Of a stretch of 64,000 nucleotides of DNA, positions 40,725-52,716 are shown one piece after another. The stretch covers positions 809,726 through 873,725 of the forward strand of contig FN649751.1 in assembly GCA_000310025.1 (NCBI GenBank), in the 5' to 3' direction. Below the pieces are notes generated by a model. It saw only the letters and a list, made by a program, of their open reading frames with translations, was not told the origin of the DNA and did not search any database. The translations under genes were made by a program, and so were the position numbers. The first letter of the stretch is position 1. The number at the start of each line of letters is the position of its first letter. The stretch is from Ectocarpus siliculosus (Eukaryota > Sar > Phaeophyceae > Ectocarpales > Ectocarpaceae).

Positions 40725-43700
40725 TCAGTCGTGCGACCACGATGTTCTTCGCCAGTTACAGCGTTCGGCCGGCACCGTGAAAATTTCCTCCAGCTCGTGG
40801 TCGTCGGTGTGCCCCTGGAAGCCGGCTTCTCTCTTCCAATGGCCGTTGGCGAAGAGGTAGCGATGGCGCGGAGCCGGCTCCTTCTTAGCGTTGCACTGAT
40901 GGCAGAGGTCGTAGTCCGGGCACGCCAGGCAGTGGTACCGGGGACCCGTGAAGTCTTGCGTGCCGCTGGAATAGAAGAGGATCCGCGACATATTGTGGGC
41001 ACGGATAGGGTTGGGATGGATCACGTGCAGAAGCGGCCTCTTGGTTGGTTCCCTATTGGCCCGTTCGAGACTGGTCGGGTAGGATTGAATCGACAACTCC
41101 AGGTGCGGCGAGATTAATACCAACGCAGATTCGACGTCCTGAGTCAACTACTTCTGCGCCCACACAATGTGGATTGGCCTTGAATTGGGCAACATACATG
41201 GGTGGTGGAAGAGGGACGGACTAAGGTTGTCGTCTAACGAAAAGCGCAAGCGCTAAATTACGCGGGGCGGATAAGGAGAGCTTCCACATCTATATTCGCA
41301 CGAGGAAAAAAAAGTAGCGACGCTCACCAAGAGTCGCAAATGAAGGCGAGCTGTCTTCCTTGAGCGATGTACTCCAACGTTTCCCTTGGGTTCACGTGCC
41401 GCTGTTGGTCGTATGCGATACGAGTCCGGAACCCCTGGTACCCTAGAGATTCGCAAATCTCTACCACTTCCGCCATCTACGTTTGGTTCGGTTTCGGCGG
41501 CAATAGAGGGGGGAAGAGTGTGCGAACGGTTTATCTCTCTTGCATGCATCAACGTCCCCCATTGAAGGAGAACCTTCTTCATGGACCACACTCCGATGCA
41601 AAAGAACGTGCGAATGGATGCAGTCCGCCCGCCGAACGTGGTTGGGTTTGAGTCACACGGCCAAAACATCTCCATCACGTGCAAAAGCAGTAGCCTCCTC
41701 CTCCCGGCGCTTGCACGGCGGCGGCACCCGGTACCCGTGAGCGGCGCACACAAAAACGCCGCAGAATCCGACGACGCGACGCCGGCAGCAGCACCACTCC
41801 CACGTACAAAAACCACAAACTGCCGCGGCCATTAAGAACAGCCAGGAGCACGGAGTTGTGGAGCATACCCACAAACATTACCAGCCAAACAAATCAGAGA
41901 TGATATAACTACAATACTCACCTTTATGAGATGCACGCGCCCTAGCGGCCCCTCCCCCCTCAGCAGCATGTTCATCTCCTCCACCAGCCCCTCGACGGCC
42001 GCGTTGTACGTCCGCCTCACGGCGGGACGGTCCCCGGCGCGGAAGAAGCAGATCGACGTGCCGGAGGATAGCCCGGCCCGCTCCAGGGTCACCCCGACGT
42101 CGCCGCCGCCTTGCTCTCGTTGCCCGGCCGCCGCCGCCGCCGCCGCTGCCGCTGCCGCTGCCGCTGCCGCCACGGCGGCGACACCTCCTCCCGGACTCGG
42201 GTTCAGTCCTCCTGGCGAGGTTGACGGGGGAGGGCACGCGAAGAAGCGCTCGTTCTGGGAGGCACCACCCCTGACGGCGGCGGTGCTTCCTCCCGACGGC
42301 TCCGCCGTCTCCGCGTTGTATATCTCCGGGTCGGTAGCCACTACCGCGCTCTGCCAGACCCAGGGCAGATCCTCGACGTACGCCTCGAGGTCTTGTGGTG
42401 CCAGGGCCGTGTCGTGCTCGGCCGCCGCCAGCTCGAAGAGGCTTCGCAAGGGGCTGGATGCCCGGAGGGCAGCGTGCGTGAGATACTTGGGGGTGGGCGG
42501 CGAGGCCGCCACCCCGCCGCCGCAGCCGTTGGAGTCACCGCCCCTCCATGTCCCCGCCGCTGATTGTGATTCTTCGTTGCCCAGCCCTAGAGTCTTGACG
42601 AAAACTAGGATGCGCTCTTCTGGCGGAATTCTTTGTCCGTCCCCGCTTGCGCCATCGGCTGCTGCGCCATCCTCGTCACCGGCATCATCACCCTCGGAAG
42701 CCGGTGAGCCGGCGGTAGGCGGCGCGCTTTCGTCGCTAGCCGACTCCCAGGCCAACGTCGACTGCTGATGAAACGGGTAAACGTCCGCCGTTCGGGAAAG
42801 CCTCACGCCGGCGTAGTTGTCCTCGGGGTCCGGTTGCGTCGAGGGCGACGACGACACCCAAGATCCATCGGTATCTCCTGCGCCGCTGCCGCCATCACCG
42901 CTCCATCTACTGCCGTCGGACGATGGCTCGAGGGGCGCCCCCGTCTTCTCCTTTTGCCGCTGCTGCTGCCGTCGTCGCAGCCAGACGCGCGAGAGACGGG
43001 TCGCGTCCCTCCCCCCCTCCGTCTCCCAGAACCCCCCGTCGCCCCGCTGCTCTACCCAGAGACGCACCCTGCACGTCTCGTCCACGGCGTCACCGCTAAG
43101 AAGCCGGAACAGGCTTGGCGAGTTCTGGCCGTCGTCTAAGAATCGCGCCGGCAAGCCTTTCCCGCTGAGCACCGACGAGAATTAGGCCAGGAGGGGGAAT
43201 CAGGCAGGGAGGGGGCACCGCGGAGAATCAGGGAGGGAGGGGTATCCGTGAGCGAGTTGGGTGAGGTCCTCGTTCGATACTCGTCTCGCCCTTCCTCTGC
43301 GTGCCGGGACGACGTCAAAGCACCGCTTACAATTCGCCCGTACCATACAAACAAGCTTCAAGAGTTTGGTTCTGTGCTGGGCCGTGCCTGCTGCATGACC
43401 CGCCGGTTTTGGGTGAGGGCGGGGGATTCACCGGCACGATTCATACGTCGCACTTCCCGAGAGAGAGGGAGGGGCAGAGCGACCGTGCCGGGCGACCGTG
43501 CGGGGGGGGGGGGGCTTACACCGCTAACCGGTGACGCTGCTTCGTGAGGAAAGAGCCCCGCGCGTGCCTTGAAAACCATCGGCGCTACTGCCGATCATCG
43601 ACCCCGTGGCATCGGCCAAAGAAAGCTGCAAGCGTGTGTGCGAAACTTCCCGCGCGATACCTAACACTTTTAAAGTTTCACAGTAGAAAACCATATATAT

Positions 43701-46700
43701 TCCTTTGCGCAAGGCGTTAACCGAAAGGTCCCCAATGCCCACCCCAACTGAAAATGACGCATGCATAACCGCATATCGCACCTGAGCAGCTGTCGCGGCG
43801 CCAGCGGGCCGTCCGTGAACGGCTGCGAGATCACCCAGAGCCGGATCCCCTCCCGCTCCACTCCGAGCGTCCGCGCGATTAACCCCTCCACCTCCTCGAG
43901 GGTGGTGCACCGGAGAACCTCGAACGTGATGCACGGCAAGGGACCGCCGCCCTTTGCGGGCGTGCTGGTGTTGCGTTTCTTCCCTCCAGGAGAAGAACGC
44001 CCGTCAGAACCGGTGGCCGCGGCGGGGGGGGTGTCCCGAGGATGGTTTCGGGAAGTTTCTGATAGGGAGACAGGGGTTGGGGCAGAGGCAGAATGCCACA
44101 ACGGAGAGTTTGTGAGTTCACTGATAATGATGTATGCAGCGGAACGATGAGCTGTCTCAAGAGAGGGGTCAGCCAAACCCCTTGGCACTACCACGCCGCC
44201 TTTAAACAGGGACCACCCATCTACGGTAACGCAACACGTTCGAAGAGCCGAACCACCGGCGGTAAAGACCAACCCCACAAAAAAAAACAAGGCATGCCCA
44301 AACATATTATGCACGTAAGAGCGTGCGACGCACCTTGCTCTTCCTCCTGCTCGGTCCCATCGTTGCCGTAGAAGTGAAACCGTCGGTCCCTACCGCGAAC
44401 CGGAACAACCCCGAACCCGCGGTGGGAAGCGAGGTCGGCCGTGGTGTAGACGTGCAGGAAGAGGAAAAGAAGCCGGGCGCGAAGCCGCACCGTGAGCCTG
44501 CCGTCCTTCACGAACCCTTGCTCCGGGTCCTGAGACATGTCGCGAGAGAATCGCGGGCTGAGGGTTGAGACCGAGTCTACGGGGTGGGGGGGGGTAGGCG
44601 TTGTACGATGCTGAGCTCCTACAATGCTGCTTGTTGGTGAAGAAGCGCACCCAGGCATGCAACGAAGATTGCGAGCGCTTGCATACGACCCCGGCCTTGC
44701 CGCGCCGACAATCTCAAAGCAGGACCCAGTGGTACTGCATGGGACACCAGCTACAGTGACAGAGCCCGTCCGACAACGGTACCAAGTCGCCACCTTACCG
44801 CCCACGCACCTGCACCTTGCCCATCGGGATCAGGCAGTGCACCCCCCAGCTGCGCCTGCCCAGCCAGAACCTGTCCCCCTCCATCGACGACACCCACACC
44901 ACGCCCTTGTCCCCCGCGGTTTTCACCGCCGCCAGGGAGAAAGCGGTGCAGCACTCGCGCGCGATGGCCGCGGGGTCCCCCGCGTGCGAAACGATGGCCG
45001 CCCTGCCCTCGCGGGTCCGCGCGCGCCGCCTCCTGCGACGCAACCCGTGCGGATCGCTCTTGGCCTCCGCTCGCGCCCCCCCTGCCTCCTCGGCTCCCCA
45101 CGGTTGGCCGACCAACAGGTGCTGCGGAGGGGGCGGAAATCCCTCGAAGGACGCCCCGCCGGCCACTCCCCCTACCCCCCAGGGAGGAGTGCCCGGGGCG
45201 TCGTCGTGGAAGGCCACAGTGAGGTAGACGGACAGGCCCTTCTCGACGGGAGGCGCGCCGGCCGCCTCCGCCTGGCTGGCAGCGCGGGGGTTGCCGGTCG
45301 GGTCGGCGAGGAGCATGAAGAGGTAGCCGCACAGGGAGAACGGGGGGAAGTACCTCCGCTCCGACTGTAAAAGCAAGAGCCGCCGCGCGCCGCCGGTGTG
45401 CGAGAAACATGGAAGGCGAGGAAGGGGGGGAGGGGGGGGGGGTAGCAGGGGTTTGTGGTGGCAGCACCTATGTGCGTACCTCGTGTGTGTTTCGAGTGTA
45501 CGCCAGAGTACATACAAGACAAACACTTGCAACAACGGGCGGGGGCAGGGGGTTGTGCAAGGGACGACGTAGGCTTTCGCCGGGCCAAAGTCGGAGGGAG
45601 AGAGTCAACGACCGAAACGTGTGGTCACCACGGGAGACGAAAGGTCAGAGGTCCGCGGACTTCACGGCGCAAGTACAACACAACGACGAGCCGCTCTACA
45701 GCGGCGGCCGGCACCACCGCGTGAATCCACCACCACAACACGGCGCAGCAGAGCAAAACACGCAGCACCACAGCACAGCGACACACACCACCGCCCATCC
45801 CTCACTCGCCTGTTCTGGGTCCCCCCCCTCCATTCCGTCAGCCCCGTCCGCGGCGCCCCCCGTTACCGCCTCCATGTTCCAGTCCAAGACCGTGGAGCGG
45901 TTACCTCGGTTGCCGTCAAGGAAGGTTTCTCGGTAGTCCCCCTCGTAGGCGCTGCAGCACGTGTACGGCGACCGGCTAAAGTAGTAGTCCCGCAGGTGGG
46001 GGAAAGCAGACATGCACGCCCGCTGGGAGGGGGGAGGGAGGCAGACCAGGTCGGACAATATAGCGGACACGTGGGTTTATTGTCTTGCATCACGGCACAC
46101 AAAAAAAATCCCAGCGGGGTGGGGAGATATCGTGACTTCTCTCCATGAAGGGGTTTCTTGCTGCAGTGGAGGGGGTGGAATGTGGGAGACTCTTGTGGAA
46201 AGAACATCATTCACTCCCGGGGTCGTCGCGCATCATCCCGTCTACGATAACGCACGAGTCACGCTTATCCCCCAAACGCACGTACGGGAAAAAATAAGTC
46301 CCTGCGGCCTTGAGTCGTGGAACCCCCCGCACCAACATCAAGCCCTCGGACTCTATTGACGAGCAAAAATTCACATGTAGTTTCCGCCCCACCCTGATCG
46401 TATGCTTACGGCCGGGGTGTGATGACGCCAAGGACGCCATGTCTCCCGCTGATTTCGCTTCCGAGGAGTGGGATCGCTCCCGTGTAACACTTCCCCCCCA
46501 ATTTGTAGAAAATGTACATACAACCAAAGAGATGCTGGCCTTTCGAGAAAACACCACAGTCACTCCAAGGGGAACTTTCTCAGCAGGGAGTGGGAAGAAG
46601 AGAAACCCCCCTCTTGGGGGGAAAAAAAAAAATGAATCTCGGATTACTTGGTGCGCCCCGCCCCCGGCTCACCTGCCACAAGTGTGCCCGATCGGTGGCA

Positions 46701-48744
46701 CGCCGCCAGCAGTACGAGACGGCCTCGCAAGACAGCAGCCCGTTCCCGTCCAGAAACTGAGACCGCACCGTCGAGGTTGAAACGAAACACCGGCAAAGAA
46801 AGAAAGGTGGAGAGATGAGCCAAACAGAAGAAAAGGTCCAACACATACCCAGCAGGATACCACTACATGGGGACCTAACGGACTCGGGATATTGCGGAAC
46901 GGCCAAGGGAGCAAGCTCCAGGTTCGCTGCGGCCGCTTCGCGATCGAGCTCGAGTTCGAGCGCCGAAGGGTGCCGCTTGGACCAAGAGCACCACGTCGTC
47001 CTGGTTTGGCCCCGTGAGCTGCCTAACAACCCAGGCTGCACGTGCCTCGTGACTCAAAAGGGATACAAATATGTATTTCTTGTTTTCCAACATATACTCC
47101 ACACACACGAGTCGGGGATAAATCACACCAGCAACTAATTCGCTTGGCGTTTTTTAGAGGCCGCCACGTCACCCCTCAGCAGCTGTTCCGTCGCGCGTCG
47201 ACTTTGCATGCAGTCTCAACGGCCTACCTACATGTTTGGCCGGTGTTGCCCTCGGTTTGGTGTTTCGGCCGTTCTGCCTGATTTGCCTAGCAAGGGTTCA
47301 TCAATTGTTTCCTTCGTGTGTACTCACGGAACAAGCGCGTTCTGCGAAGCGAAGTTACTTCGACATGCGGGGGGATATCTCACCGACATTTGTTTTTCCT
47401 ACAGCAGTACGACAACAGCTGCTAGGAGATGCTTGCCCGCGCCAAAAATCAACCTCATGGCCGGAACGACCCGTGTACGGAAATGACTGCCATGCGGCTG
47501 TATAGATCCAACATCGCCCCGCCGGTACATACTTCGAACGACGGTGTATTTGCCAACGGATACATACTTGTAGAGAGTGCGAGGTTAAGATTCCCTGTGA
47601 GAAGATACGCATATCTACTATTATATTATACTGTAACTATCCTGTGGTCTCCATCTGCAAATGCCGCCGGCGATGGCTGTGCATCGATTTGGGGCACGTT
47701 TTTTTTTTGCAGCCGACCCTATTTTTACTTGGGCAGGTCGATGGCCAGAGTCGTAACGTGTCTTGGGGTGGCCTGGCTTAACCGGGCCCGCGCGAGACTA
47801 GCATATCGAGGAGTGCCGGGACTGCCGGGGAGCGGGAACAAAGTTCCAAAATTGCAACTAAATCAATCACTTCGGCGGGGGCTTTGGGCAGTCGACGACG
47901 ACGGCAGCTCTACTTTTTTAGTCACTCGGAACACGCACGAAGACGTTCAGCTACTCTGATCCGCTCTCTCTCTCTCTGTGTCTCTTTCAACTGCTGTCCT
48001 TCAGGGGAGAACGCGCATGAGCACACGGCCCTGCTGCGTTCAAGTAACAAGTTGTTGCCAAGAGTTGCAAACATCCCGCCGTCGCTCTTGCGGTGTACAA
48101 GATGTACAGCAGTACTGCTGTAGAATGCTCTCCGTTTGGTCGTGGTTCTATTTCTACCTCTCTCTCTGCCCGCCACATGCACACACGTGCTGCGTCTATC
48201 GTGTCCCGCTATGTAGCAAAAGCGATCCTACGCCAGGATGTGTGATCTGCCATGGTACGAAGTAGGTATATATTTTCCGCCTCTGCACACAAGTACAAAC
48301 GAAGGAGGTGCACACAATCCGTAACTTGATTGTAGTTGTATCTGCAAGGCCAAACAAAATGGCCCACCAACACACCGCCGTCAAAATCTCCCGCCTTAGA
48401 AAGGAATCAGCGTCAGCCGACAGACAGATGGGAGACAAAGCCTCCGCCAACAACGCACGCACGCCCGACCATACCAGTGTTAGAGAACACGGGAGTGACA
48501 TTGGACGCTGCCAAGGCGCTGCCCGCAGGGTCCACATTTTTGGTACGGTACATCGGCGGTGGAATTCCGGCACATTGTTTTCAAGAGAGAACGGCAGTAG
48601 AGTCGTTGTCATCAGGCCCACCTCAAACACCGTGTCGAGCACCTCCACAGGAACCGTCGGGGCCGGTGCTTCGGCGAAGGCCTCGCCTCCTCCGGCTCCA
48701 GGCGGCTCGCTCCTCCCGCTCGGAGCCCTCTTCCTTTGATCCAT
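40725..48744 (-). CDS. F-box/MATH/USP7-like HUBL/ZZ protein, no protease domain
   Basis: Nine exons with GT-AG junctions and matching phases give 1007 residues: 48744-48622, 46756-46673, 46022-45867, 45364-44810, 44529-44334, 44058-43782, 43164-41922, 41476-41328, 40965-40725. The F-box spans residues about 30-75, from VPVEVLDTVFE across intron 1 to FLDGNGLLSCEAVSYCWR and LWQ. A MATH/TRAF-like domain follows at about 115-325, opening with VLDWNMEASERRYFPPFS and closing with DPEQGFVKDGRL as in USP7. USP7-type ubiquitin-like domains follow (HVYTTADLASHRGFG, EREGIRLWVISQPF, RILVFVKTLG, TSICFFRAGDRP). A poly-Ala run lies near residue 800. The C terminus holds a ZZ finger with Cys pairs at 925/928, 940/943 and 949/952 plus His residues. 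No Cys or His box of a USP protease is present. The likely role is a substrate receptor of an SCF ubiquitin ligase; this is inferred from domains only. An alternative ATG lies at 48783. Confidence 0.85.
42120..42182 (-). repeat. GCN trinucleotide run coding poly-Ala
   Basis: GCC/GCT-type repeats inside exon 7 of the F-box/MATH gene encode about 16 consecutive Ala residues, between the second and third ubiquitin-like segments. It lies in a flexible, low-complexity linker and may vary in length between strains. Confidence 0.8.
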
Positions 48745-49081: not shown

Positions 49082-52000
49082 ATGAACTCCCCATCCAAGA
49101 CGAAACAAGAGGGAGCGGCGGCCGTGTATTACTCCAGCTGTGTCATCACCATGGCGGAGAAAGGGACGTGTCACCTACCCCTGGCGTTCATACCTGACGG
49201 AGCCCTGGCGATTGTCTTTTCCTTTGTAGCTGTCAACGATTTGCTCTCTGCGAACAAGGTACGCATGAAATACACCAGACGCGGAGAGTCTACAATATAT
49301 CGCAGTATGTTGCGTGCGCGTGTCCAGCATAGTTCTAGAGCAGTAGACGCTGCTTGCATGGCGTCAAGTATACCCCTGCAGGCGTCAGGCAGCAGCACCA
49401 GAGTCAAAAAGGCAAAGGGCCCGGGCAATGTCGTTGTTATCTTGAGTTCGGTTAGATCTTATACCAACCTTGTTGAAGTTTACGTCGCTGTTTTGGTGTT
49501 GGTGGGACTTCCCACAAGAACAACAGCTCTCAACATCCGCTCGCGCTACTTGTAGAAGCCTTAGCCTGTTGTACAAATGAATGTAAAAGGAGCATTTCCC
49601 CCCCTTTGCATGGTTCTGGGCCAATGGGCGCAAACGCCAATCGACAACCACGGGAAATGGACCGGTGGCTGCTCCATTTTCAGGAGCGTTTCGACCAATA
49701 GTCCTCCTACCTTTCCCAACCCAAACAACCATTGCACCCAAGGTGTGCCGAGATTGGGTATTGGATGGAACAAGGGTGGACCTGTGGGCTTCGCTCGGCA
49801 AGATCTTTGAAGTGGCGATGCCCGTCTCCCTAGGGCCTCAGACTAGCCAACGAGCGGCCGGTTCGACCGGAGCGACCGCAGGTGGAGGTAGAGGGAAACG
49901 CGTTTTAAGGTGCGATTTTGTGGTGCTGCAATCATGTTCACGTGTGGCTCGTGGCAGTTTGCGTTTCTAATTGAGAGCTTGTTCTGATTGCGTGACGTTG
50001 CCGTAGCCGGGTTCGGTCAAACTGGCTTGGCGATGAGTGTTTTTGTCTCTTCCGGTCCGGACACAACGCCTTGTTTTTACCCACATCCGTCGGACTTCTC
50101 TGTTTTTTTTTGCCGCTGTTCTCTGAAGATCCGGCGCTAACGCGAAGCGGACGTTCTTGAAGTCTTATGCCGCGGCGGTCAAGAGCGACAGGTGACAGAA
50201 ACCAAACGCGTGCGTCGATCTGTAGATGCCACACGTCCTGCTGACCATGACCTCCTGCTGGTTATTTTACTACCACTTTTCAAAGCTCACGAGAGGTTGC
50301 CGTTGGCACTGAAACACTGCGGTCAGCGCTGCCGTTCTTTGGTATGTCCCATGGAATTCATTTAGCGCTAAGAATTTTTCCGTAGAGAGAACGGAGTCTT
50401 GCCCTGTGTTTTTTAGACCGTTCGCGGTGGCGTGCAGGGAGTGCACCTGTGCGTAATTTTCATTCGGCGTGTGTCGCCCACGCCAACTGACAAGCTGCCT
50501 GCAAAGTGACACATTCCCGAATGCCTTCGACCTTGCACTGCCGACCGTGCGCTTCTTCTGTGGGACTACCTTTGTTGAAGGCTAAAGCACGACTCGACGC
50601 TGTCGGAGGCCTACACCCTCTTCCGCATGAAAGACTCCGTGATGAGGCTGCGCACTCTGCTGCGTCGCAGGTGGGGGCTAACGTTCCACCCCTCCTCGAA
50701 GCCCGACCAAAACAAGAGGATCGAGAACTACGAAAGCAGCAGCAACAGCAGCAGCGGCGGCAGCAGCAGCAGTAGCGGGGAACTTGGCCTTTTTTTCCCC
50801 ACGGCAACTGCAACGAGCAACTGCCTTTCTGGAACAGCGGCAACTCTCAAAGCCCGCACCAATGCCGGGGCTGACAAAGACAGAGCGAGGGGCACGTGGA
50901 GCGGAAAGGCGAGGTGGTCGTTCAACGTGGACCACAGGCACGGAATATTTGAGGGAAACACTCTCCTTAATTTCGCTGGTGAGTAGTATCCGAGAGGCTT
51001 GTACTACAGCATGCAGCCTGATATTGTGGCATCAAAACCTCTTGTCACAATGTCAACATGCCCATGAACCCGATATATCGAATAGTGGCACTGCACTTAT
51101 TGGTGGCATGTTCTCCTGTTGCCCCTACATGCCACCATATCGGGCTGCTTGCTGTACTCGAAACTTCCGCCGCTATAGTCGGTATTTCCAAAATGATGCG
51201 AGGGACTACTGTCTAGGCGCTCTGTTGGGTGGGTTTGTAGGGCATTGGTGTCCAAGCATTTCCAGCACCGGCTATCGAGCACTGACAAGGAAAAGCGTAC
51301 ATATGAAGCGTTTATTTTTTAATTTATCGGTATCAAAATATAATGCTGTTGGATGGCTGAACGCACGAACGAACGCAGCTTGAGTCTTTATGAGCAAGAG
51401 CCCATACTCCTGGTTTCCGACACGCCCGATGCTTCCCATGATGATAGTACCAACGGTACCGCCTTCCTCCGGCGTTCCGTGCCCTATCTCACCGCGAGCA
51501 GTCCGCTGCGGCAGAAGGAAGTGCGTGGAGTTCATCCTGTGGCAAATGGGCGCCGACACCGAGATCGCCGACTACGGCGGTTTCACTCCCTTGCTCAACA
51601 CAGGTAAGCCACGACGCCCGCCAGGCCATTTTGCAGCACTCGGTGGAGGGTATACCAGGCGCTTTGCCGCACACACGGGTTTGTACTCATAGTCGTGCAT
51701 GCCGTAGTCGTTTGACCATTGACCTCGCATCCCTACAAAGCTGGGACGGAGCACGTCGGGTTCTCACCGGACCAGACGCTCACATCTGCAAGCGCGAAGC
51801 GCCGTGAGGTATTCGGCGAGTCATATGGGAGAGGATGAAAACCTCGTGTTGGGCGTGAGGCCGACCGCCTTACATGCTGCGATATTTTGTCGAGGCACTA
51901 GCGGTATGAGATCTCAGAGGACCACCTCTGCAGCGTAGTATGGCTGCAGACCACGCCATGCGTCCGGTTGCGCGTAACCCCTCTGTATCAATGCGGCCCA

Positions 52001-52716
52001 TTGTGGACGAATTACCAACATGTTTTCAGACCGCCTACTCACCACCGCCCCCTTCTCCGTCCTTACAAGGATGCGTGGTCAATGGTCTAACAACTAGGGA
52101 CATGCAAAACTTGATCTCCCCCCCCGCCCTTTCACCTGCCTTCCCGCTACAGCATGGAGAGGCGATGCCCCTCTCCTCAAGACCCTCCTCGCAGCGGGCG
52201 CTCGACTTGACGTGAAAGGCGTGTCTCGCGGGGTGGGGCCTTTCAGTCCCCTCGAATGGGCTGAACGCAAGGTTAGTAAGGACAACTTTGTGCTGCTGAG
52301 CTCTTTCAGTCTCGCTTTAACTCTTTCCCGTCACTTCCGCCGTGGTTTACGCGCGCGTGCGCTAGAGTACTGCCGGGTCACGCCCCAGCTTGAACCCCAA
52401 GGAATGCAAAACGCCATAGGAATAATGATGCATTCGAGTATTCAGGGACTGGGAGGGACGCGCCGTGGAGGTTCAGTTGGTGGTGGTCAACAGTGGTGCC
52501 ATCTGTACCTTCCCAAAACCCACCAATGCACCGTCTGCGATACGTTCCCTGCAGAACCGCCCGGTGACAGCGGCTTTTCTACGGAGCCTTGAGGCACGAG
52601 AAGAAGAGGGGGGGAGTGCTGAAGGAGCAGGACCAGGGCGAGGCAACAACGGTAAATCCAAGGTGAAGGCGCCGAAGGAACCGACGCACTCGGACGTCCG
52701 TGTGGGGGCACCATAG
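49082..52716 (+). CDS. F-box protein with ankyrin repeats
   Basis: Seven exons with matching phases: 49082-49258, 49743-49909, 50129-50191, 50581-50978, 51502-51603, 52153-52271, 52555-52716, giving 395 residues (372 if the ATG at 49151 is used). The F-box is CHLPLAFIPDGALAIVFSF and LLSANK in exon 1, continued by VCRDWVLDGTRVDLWASL in exon 2. A helical region follows (SDRLKHDSTLSEAYTLFRMK), then a Ser-rich stretch. Ankyrin repeats span exons 4-6: GNTLLNFAV, CVEFILWQMGADTEIADYGGF with TPLLNTA, and PLLKTLLAAGARLDVKG. The tail is basic and charged. The F-box should bind SKP1 in an SCF ligase, and the ankyrin repeats should choose substrates; both roles are family knowledge, and the substrate is unknown. 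Exon 4 may hide a small optional intron starting at the CAG/GTGGGG near 50668, since the Ser-rich part stays open either way. It is divergent from the neighbouring F-box gene. Confidence 0.82.
51683..52124 (+). repeat. dispersed repeat copy in F-box/ankyrin intron 5
   Basis: 51683-51827 matches the left part of the element at 28763 (GTACTCATAGTCGTGCATGC through CGCGAAGCGCCGTGAGGTAT). Near 52067-52124 a degenerate inverted copy of the same end follows (GATGCGTGGTCAATGGTCTA, then a C run). The middle is unrelated, so the intron carries a fold-back pair or two fragments. Confidence 0.6.

Follow-up and report, generated by a model that had tools for sequence, protein, structure and literature searches.

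A predicted gene of Ectocarpus siliculosus that joins an F-box to USP7-like MATH and HUBL modules and a ZZ finger

A window of 64,000 nucleotides from contig FN649751.1 of the brown alga Ectocarpus siliculosus (positions 809,726 to 873,725 of the contig) was analyzed, and all coordinates below are those of the window. Its minus strand carries, at 40725..48744, a gene that is predicted from the sequence to comprise nine exons and 1007 codons plus a stop. This phase-matched model had been proposed in the first-pass annotation and could be rebuilt exactly, with GT-AG splice sites at all eight introns and matching phase at every junction. In each of the eight introns the continuing frame is closed by one or more stops, none has a length divisible by three, and the GC content of the coding sequence is 0.675 (0.79 at third codon positions, or GC3) compared to 0.52–0.64 in the introns. 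The predicted product is a fusion of an F-box, a USP7-like MATH domain, USP7-type ubiquitin-like (HUBL) sequence and a ZZ zinc finger in the same chain, with no detectable protease. Profile and pairwise comparisons of the translation support this architecture.

The unaltered 1007-residue protein was scanned against Pfam with an E-value limit of 10, although the filters of HMMER let few matches above about 0.1 through. An F-box-like domain was found at residues 31–73 with an E-value of 5.7e-8 and 32.8 bits, compared to a cut-off of 24.3, and a second F-box model (PF00646) reached 12.1 bits, below its cut-off of 20.5. The domain is assembled from three exons: exon 1 (48622..48744) encodes the N-terminus and the start of the F-box (residues 1–41), exon 2 (46673..46756) encodes its core (residues 42–69), and exon 3 (45867..46022) encodes its last residues (70–73), followed by a linker and, as judged by eye, a possible first MATH strand, VLDWNM. 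Exon 2 scores 17.8 bits by itself, as against the 32.8 bits of exons 1–3 joined. A scan of residues 1–504 against NCBIfam gave no match.

At the opposite end of the protein, a ZZ finger was found by the same Pfam scan at residues 922–961 (E-value 1.1e-10; 41.6 bits compared to a cut-off of 21.4), so that both terminal domains named in the first-pass annotation exceed their cut-offs. Exon 8 (41328..41476) encodes a segment without a domain assignment and the greater part of the finger's first CxxC, and exon 9 (40725..40965) encodes the remainder of the finger and the C-terminus. The cysteine pairs are complete (C925/C928, C940/C943 and C949/C952), and H962/H970 form a candidate histidine pair. 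An earlier model of 1061 residues, in which exon 3 ended at a GC donor and exon 9 began at acceptor 41070, was dropped because it interrupted the finger. The ZZ E-value is 4.4e-7 with the acceptor at 41070 and 1.1e-10 with the acceptor at 40965, an improvement that comes from joining exons 8 and 9 so that the first CxxC is whole.

Among sequences in the PDB, the finger matched p62 (7.1e-7), BIG (3.4e-6), KCMF1 (1.2e-5) and PRT1 (2.8e-4), and HERC2, CBP and ZZZ3, which carry histone-tail or other ZZ domains, matched too but more weakly. Residues I127, D129, R139, D147 and D149 of p62, which are reported to line the site for N-terminal arginine (PMC6197226), are all identical here, and N132 of p62 is replaced by glycine. 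The counterparts of the p62 triad D129/D147/D149 are D926, D945 and D947. Such an aspartate triad is probably frequent among ZZ domains and is hence insufficient as a criterion for an N-recognin, so the likeness to p62 is a lead and not proof.

The MATH domain, as it can be read from the translation, is a divergent one that is split by a 74-residue loop. Exon 4 (44810..45364) would encode its bulk, including the loop (residues 179–252), and exon 5 (44334..44529) its C-terminal strands. With the loop excised, the shortened piece matched MATH_2 at 25.9 bits (E-value 1.3e-5), and with the loop retained it matched at 18.6 bits (0.0023), both below the cut-off of 32. The donor at 45867 for exon 3 gives the match of 25.9 bits from profile position 24, while the alternative GC donor gives 25.3 bits from position 46, a slight preference for the former. 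When the loop-less piece was compared with the PDB by phmmer, the MATH domain of USP7 came out on top (E-value 0.27), and USP7 accounted for 9 of the 17 sequences listed; the other eight were six sialidases, one designed protein and one ketosynthase. Between the MATH piece and the HUBL segment no similarity was seen, with 718 of 1000 shuffles reaching the score.

Exon 6 (43782..44058) encodes a linker and the first HUBL domain, HUBL1, of which residues 415–462 were aligned with USP7. Compared to human USP7 HUBL1, this piece gave an E(Z=1) of 1.9e-6, and its score was reached by none of 2000 shuffles with HMMER and none of 1000 with Smith-Waterman. Against a profile built from two sequences, human USP7 and a catalytic USP7 of the same genome, it scored 19.4 bits with an E(Z=1) of 1.3e-9, and 0 of 5000 shuffles did as well. 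A search of the PDB with the same piece listed seven sequences, a ribosomal protein at the top (E-value 0.36) followed by six USP7 sequences (best E-value 0.5).

Exon 7 (41922..43164) encodes low-complexity linkers and a divergent candidate HUBL2 at about residues 644–835. It is 1243 nucleotides long, and the linkers between the HUBL-like pieces include a long alanine run. The score of HUBL2 against the two-sequence profile was reached by 25 of 5000 shuffles with loops removed and by 30 of 5000 with loops kept; against human HUBL2 alone, the counts were 31 and 59 of 2000 with HMMER and 57 and 74 of 1000 with Smith-Waterman. As swapped controls, the HUBL1 sequence was run against the HUBL2 profile and the reverse, and 2013 and 1257 of 5000 shuffles, respectively, reached the score.

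Between HUBL2 and the ZZ finger, a segment (41328–42010, residues 849–924) has a helix-strand pattern that recalls a ubiquitin-like domain, but the statistics give this no support. As a third such domain it looked plausible by eye and was rejected, with 828 of 1000 Smith-Waterman shuffles reaching its score and no relevant Pfam match. USP7_C2, the family of HUBL4-5, was not listed by Pfam on the full protein. Collectively, these comparisons suggest that HUBL1 is a sound assignment, HUBL2 a weak one and HUBL3-5 unsupported. The MATH and USP7-type HUBL domains of the first-pass annotation therefore survived in part: MATH as a match of a loop-less piece that stays under its cut-off, and HUBL as HUBL1 with a doubtful HUBL2.

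In the MATH alignment, the tryptophan at W165 of USP7 is retained, the aspartate before it is replaced by serine, and the asparagine four residues on is replaced by cysteine; we take D164 and N169 of the USP7 MATH domain to have a role as well. W165 is reported to be required for the binding of p53 and MDM2 (PMC4624675). The binding of ICP0, a KxxxK client, to USP7 requires E759, D762 and D764 within 758-DELMDGD-764, and binding of GMPS and UHRF1 drops when D762 and D764 are changed (PMC4457826). In the MAFFT alignment of this pocket, which rests on the weak HUBL2 match, D758 and E759 fall into a gap, D762 is replaced by serine and D764 by threonine; the genome's catalytic USP7 retains counterparts of both E759 and D764.

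That catalytic USP7-type gene is a separate one on contig C484, where a Cys box, a His box and HUBL exons were recognized by eye and the HUBL family scored 18.2, 15.7 and 15.0 bits on its exons, each below the Pfam cut-off. As it lies elsewhere, the F-box gene is not the USP7 of this genome misread. A search of the 189-Mb assembly turned up no second copy of the F-box gene; the 12 matches listed were the gene's own nine exons and three weak ones (E-values 0.05–0.3). Searches of the genome with the MATH_2 and USP7_C2 profiles gave no match anywhere, including in the controls, and are therefore uninformative on absence.

The same genome contains a SKP1 gene (1.4e-15) and cullin exons, which makes a receptor of the SKP1–cullin–F-box (SCF) type the natural reading. 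With a probability of roughly 0.57, we consider that a single gene encodes an SCF-type substrate receptor that docks its clients through USP7-like modules. In the mechanism that we propose, the N-terminal F-box would bind SKP1-CUL1, as its domain type and the presence of SKP1 and cullin genes suggest. Detached from any protease, the MATH domain and one or more HUBL domains would dock short client motifs, as the roles of these domains in USP7 would lead one to expect. In USP7, the MATH domain reads [PAE]xxS and the ubiquitin-like domains read KxxxK motifs (PMC13376213); here the docking specificity would be shifted away from that of USP7. Clients would also be contacted by the ZZ finger, most likely at an exposed protein N-terminus. 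SKP1 binding, client binding and the outcome for ubiquitination are thus steps that we infer, and on this basis the gene product probably selects proteins for destruction.

Several results weigh against this reading. First, MATH was not listed by Pfam on the full 1007-residue protein, and its pieces stayed below the cut-off. Second, Pfam listed the HUBL family USP7_ICP0_bdg neither on the full protein nor on the pieces, and HUBL2, although collinear with USP7 in position, matches weakly. Third, a PDB search with the full-length 1061-residue first model listed 36 sequences, none of them USP7. Fourth, AlphaFold run on the single sequence gave a mean predicted local distance difference test score (pLDDT) of 36.8 for exon 4 and 34.5 for the HUBL2 part of exon 7; no relative of exon 4 was found among prokaryote contigs and none of exon 7 among viral contigs. 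Finally, the one-gene model is unevenly backed by domains. Junctions 1-2, 2-3, 4-5 and 8-9 are covered by domain matches, and junction 6-7 falls between HUBL1 in exon 6 and HUBL2 in exon 7, whereas junctions 3-4, 5-6 and 7-8 have no spanning match and are supported by phase, splice consensus and short introns. Because the first MATH strand in exon 3 was assigned by eye and the Pfam match begins in exon 4, our confidence in one gene is slightly lowered.

The three junctions that no domain match crosses leave room for two adjacent genes, an arrangement that we regard as unlikely, though as the likeliest of the alternatives. In its likeliest form, exons 1–7 would encode an F-box–MATH–HUBL protein and a 129-residue ZZ protein would start at the ATG with which exon 8 begins; intron 3 or intron 5 is a less likely place for the division. 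Because of this ATG, which follows directly after a TAG, the chief structural alternative is a separate ZZ gene, and the piece from exon 8 on gives by itself a ZZ match of 5.9e-12. However, the donor at the end of exon 7, AAG|GTGAGT, is in phase 0 with exon 8, and introns 3, 5 and 7, at 502, 275 and 445 nucleotides, leave little space for a 3′ end and a promoter.

A more specific version of the single-receptor reading would make the product an SCF-type N-recognin, in which the p62-like ZZ finger reads an exposed N-terminus, the USP7-derived MATH/HUBL part reads an internal motif and a client needs both signals. Plant PRT1, which has two RINGs and a ZZ domain, is reported to take over the recognition of type-2 N-termini (PMC11371169). 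We regard this two-signal version as speculative and rather doubtful.

It is also improbable that the protein is a non-catalytic competitor or scaffold, whose MATH/HUBL part sequesters partners and whose F-box binds SKP1 or other proteins without an active SCF. Some F-box proteins do act outside SCF, and no catalytic domain was listed in the Pfam scan, as such a role would have it; against it stand an F-box-like domain above its cut-off and the SKP1 and cullin genes of the genome. Least probable of all is the version put forward in the first-pass annotation, that of a receptor for USP7's own clients that opposes USP7, since the KxxxK-pocket substitutions at D762 and D764 (in the weak HUBL2 alignment), the altered aspartate and asparagine near the MATH tryptophan and the undetected HUBL3 similarity and USP7_C2 speak against recognition of USP7-type clients, even though the MATH and HUBL1 pieces match USP7 more often than any other protein in the PDB and the tryptophan aligned with W165 is retained.

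In the neighborhood, at 49151–49967 on the plus strand, another F-box-like gene faces the receptor candidate head to head, with some 400 bp between its ATG and the start of the F-box/MATH gene. Its two exons were joined by eye and gave 19.3 bits (E-value 0.00095), which does not reach the cut-off of 24.3. Farther on, frames at about 51460–52300 resemble ankyrin repeats by eye, and two short pieces of them had no Pfam match.

Each of the single domains in the predicted receptor is already known, and the novelty lies in their combination. Neither an F-box with USP7-like modules nor a ZZ finger on an SCF receptor was found described among open-access titles and the starts of abstracts, a scope outside which most subscription journals and the sequence databases fall. 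If the gene yields one transcript, the targeting half of a deubiquitinase would have been recruited onto a ligase receptor, so that the same kind of module would serve the removal of ubiquitin in one protein and its addition in another, and an SCF receptor would carry a ZZ finger that possibly reads N-termini.

Compared to known systems, the predicted protein shares features with four groups. First, it resembles USP7/HAUSP (MATH–UCH–HUBL1-5) in having MATH ahead of HUBL1 and perhaps HUBL2, and the PDB sequences matched by the MATH piece (9/17) and by the HUBL1 piece (6/7) are mostly USP7. It differs from USP7/HAUSP in that no UCH protease family was listed on the 1007-residue protein and USP7_C2 was undetected, in the substituted D762/D764 of the KxxxK pocket, and in the added F-box and ZZ finger. 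Second, as in the SCF F-box receptors, an N-terminal F-box is followed by protein-binding domains. The partner domain here is MATH, while the frequent partners in one survey are Kelch, LRR and WD40, and the word MATH does not occur in the main text of that survey (PMC4327156). Third, the ZZ N-degron readers p62/SQSTM1, BIG, KCMF1 and PRT1 supply the closest ZZ sequences, and the key p62 residues are identical. Unlike in p62/SQSTM1, the position of N132 holds glycine and the finger sits on an F-box protein, and unlike in PRT1, with its two RINGs and ZZ domain, the link to a ligase would be an F-box. Fourth, MATH domains occur in parts of E3 ligases such as SPOP, a MATH-BTB protein of CUL3, and TRIM37. 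In the predicted protein, as in these, MATH would dock substrates for a ligase; its coupling would be through an F-box, and USP7-type HUBL sequence accompanies it.

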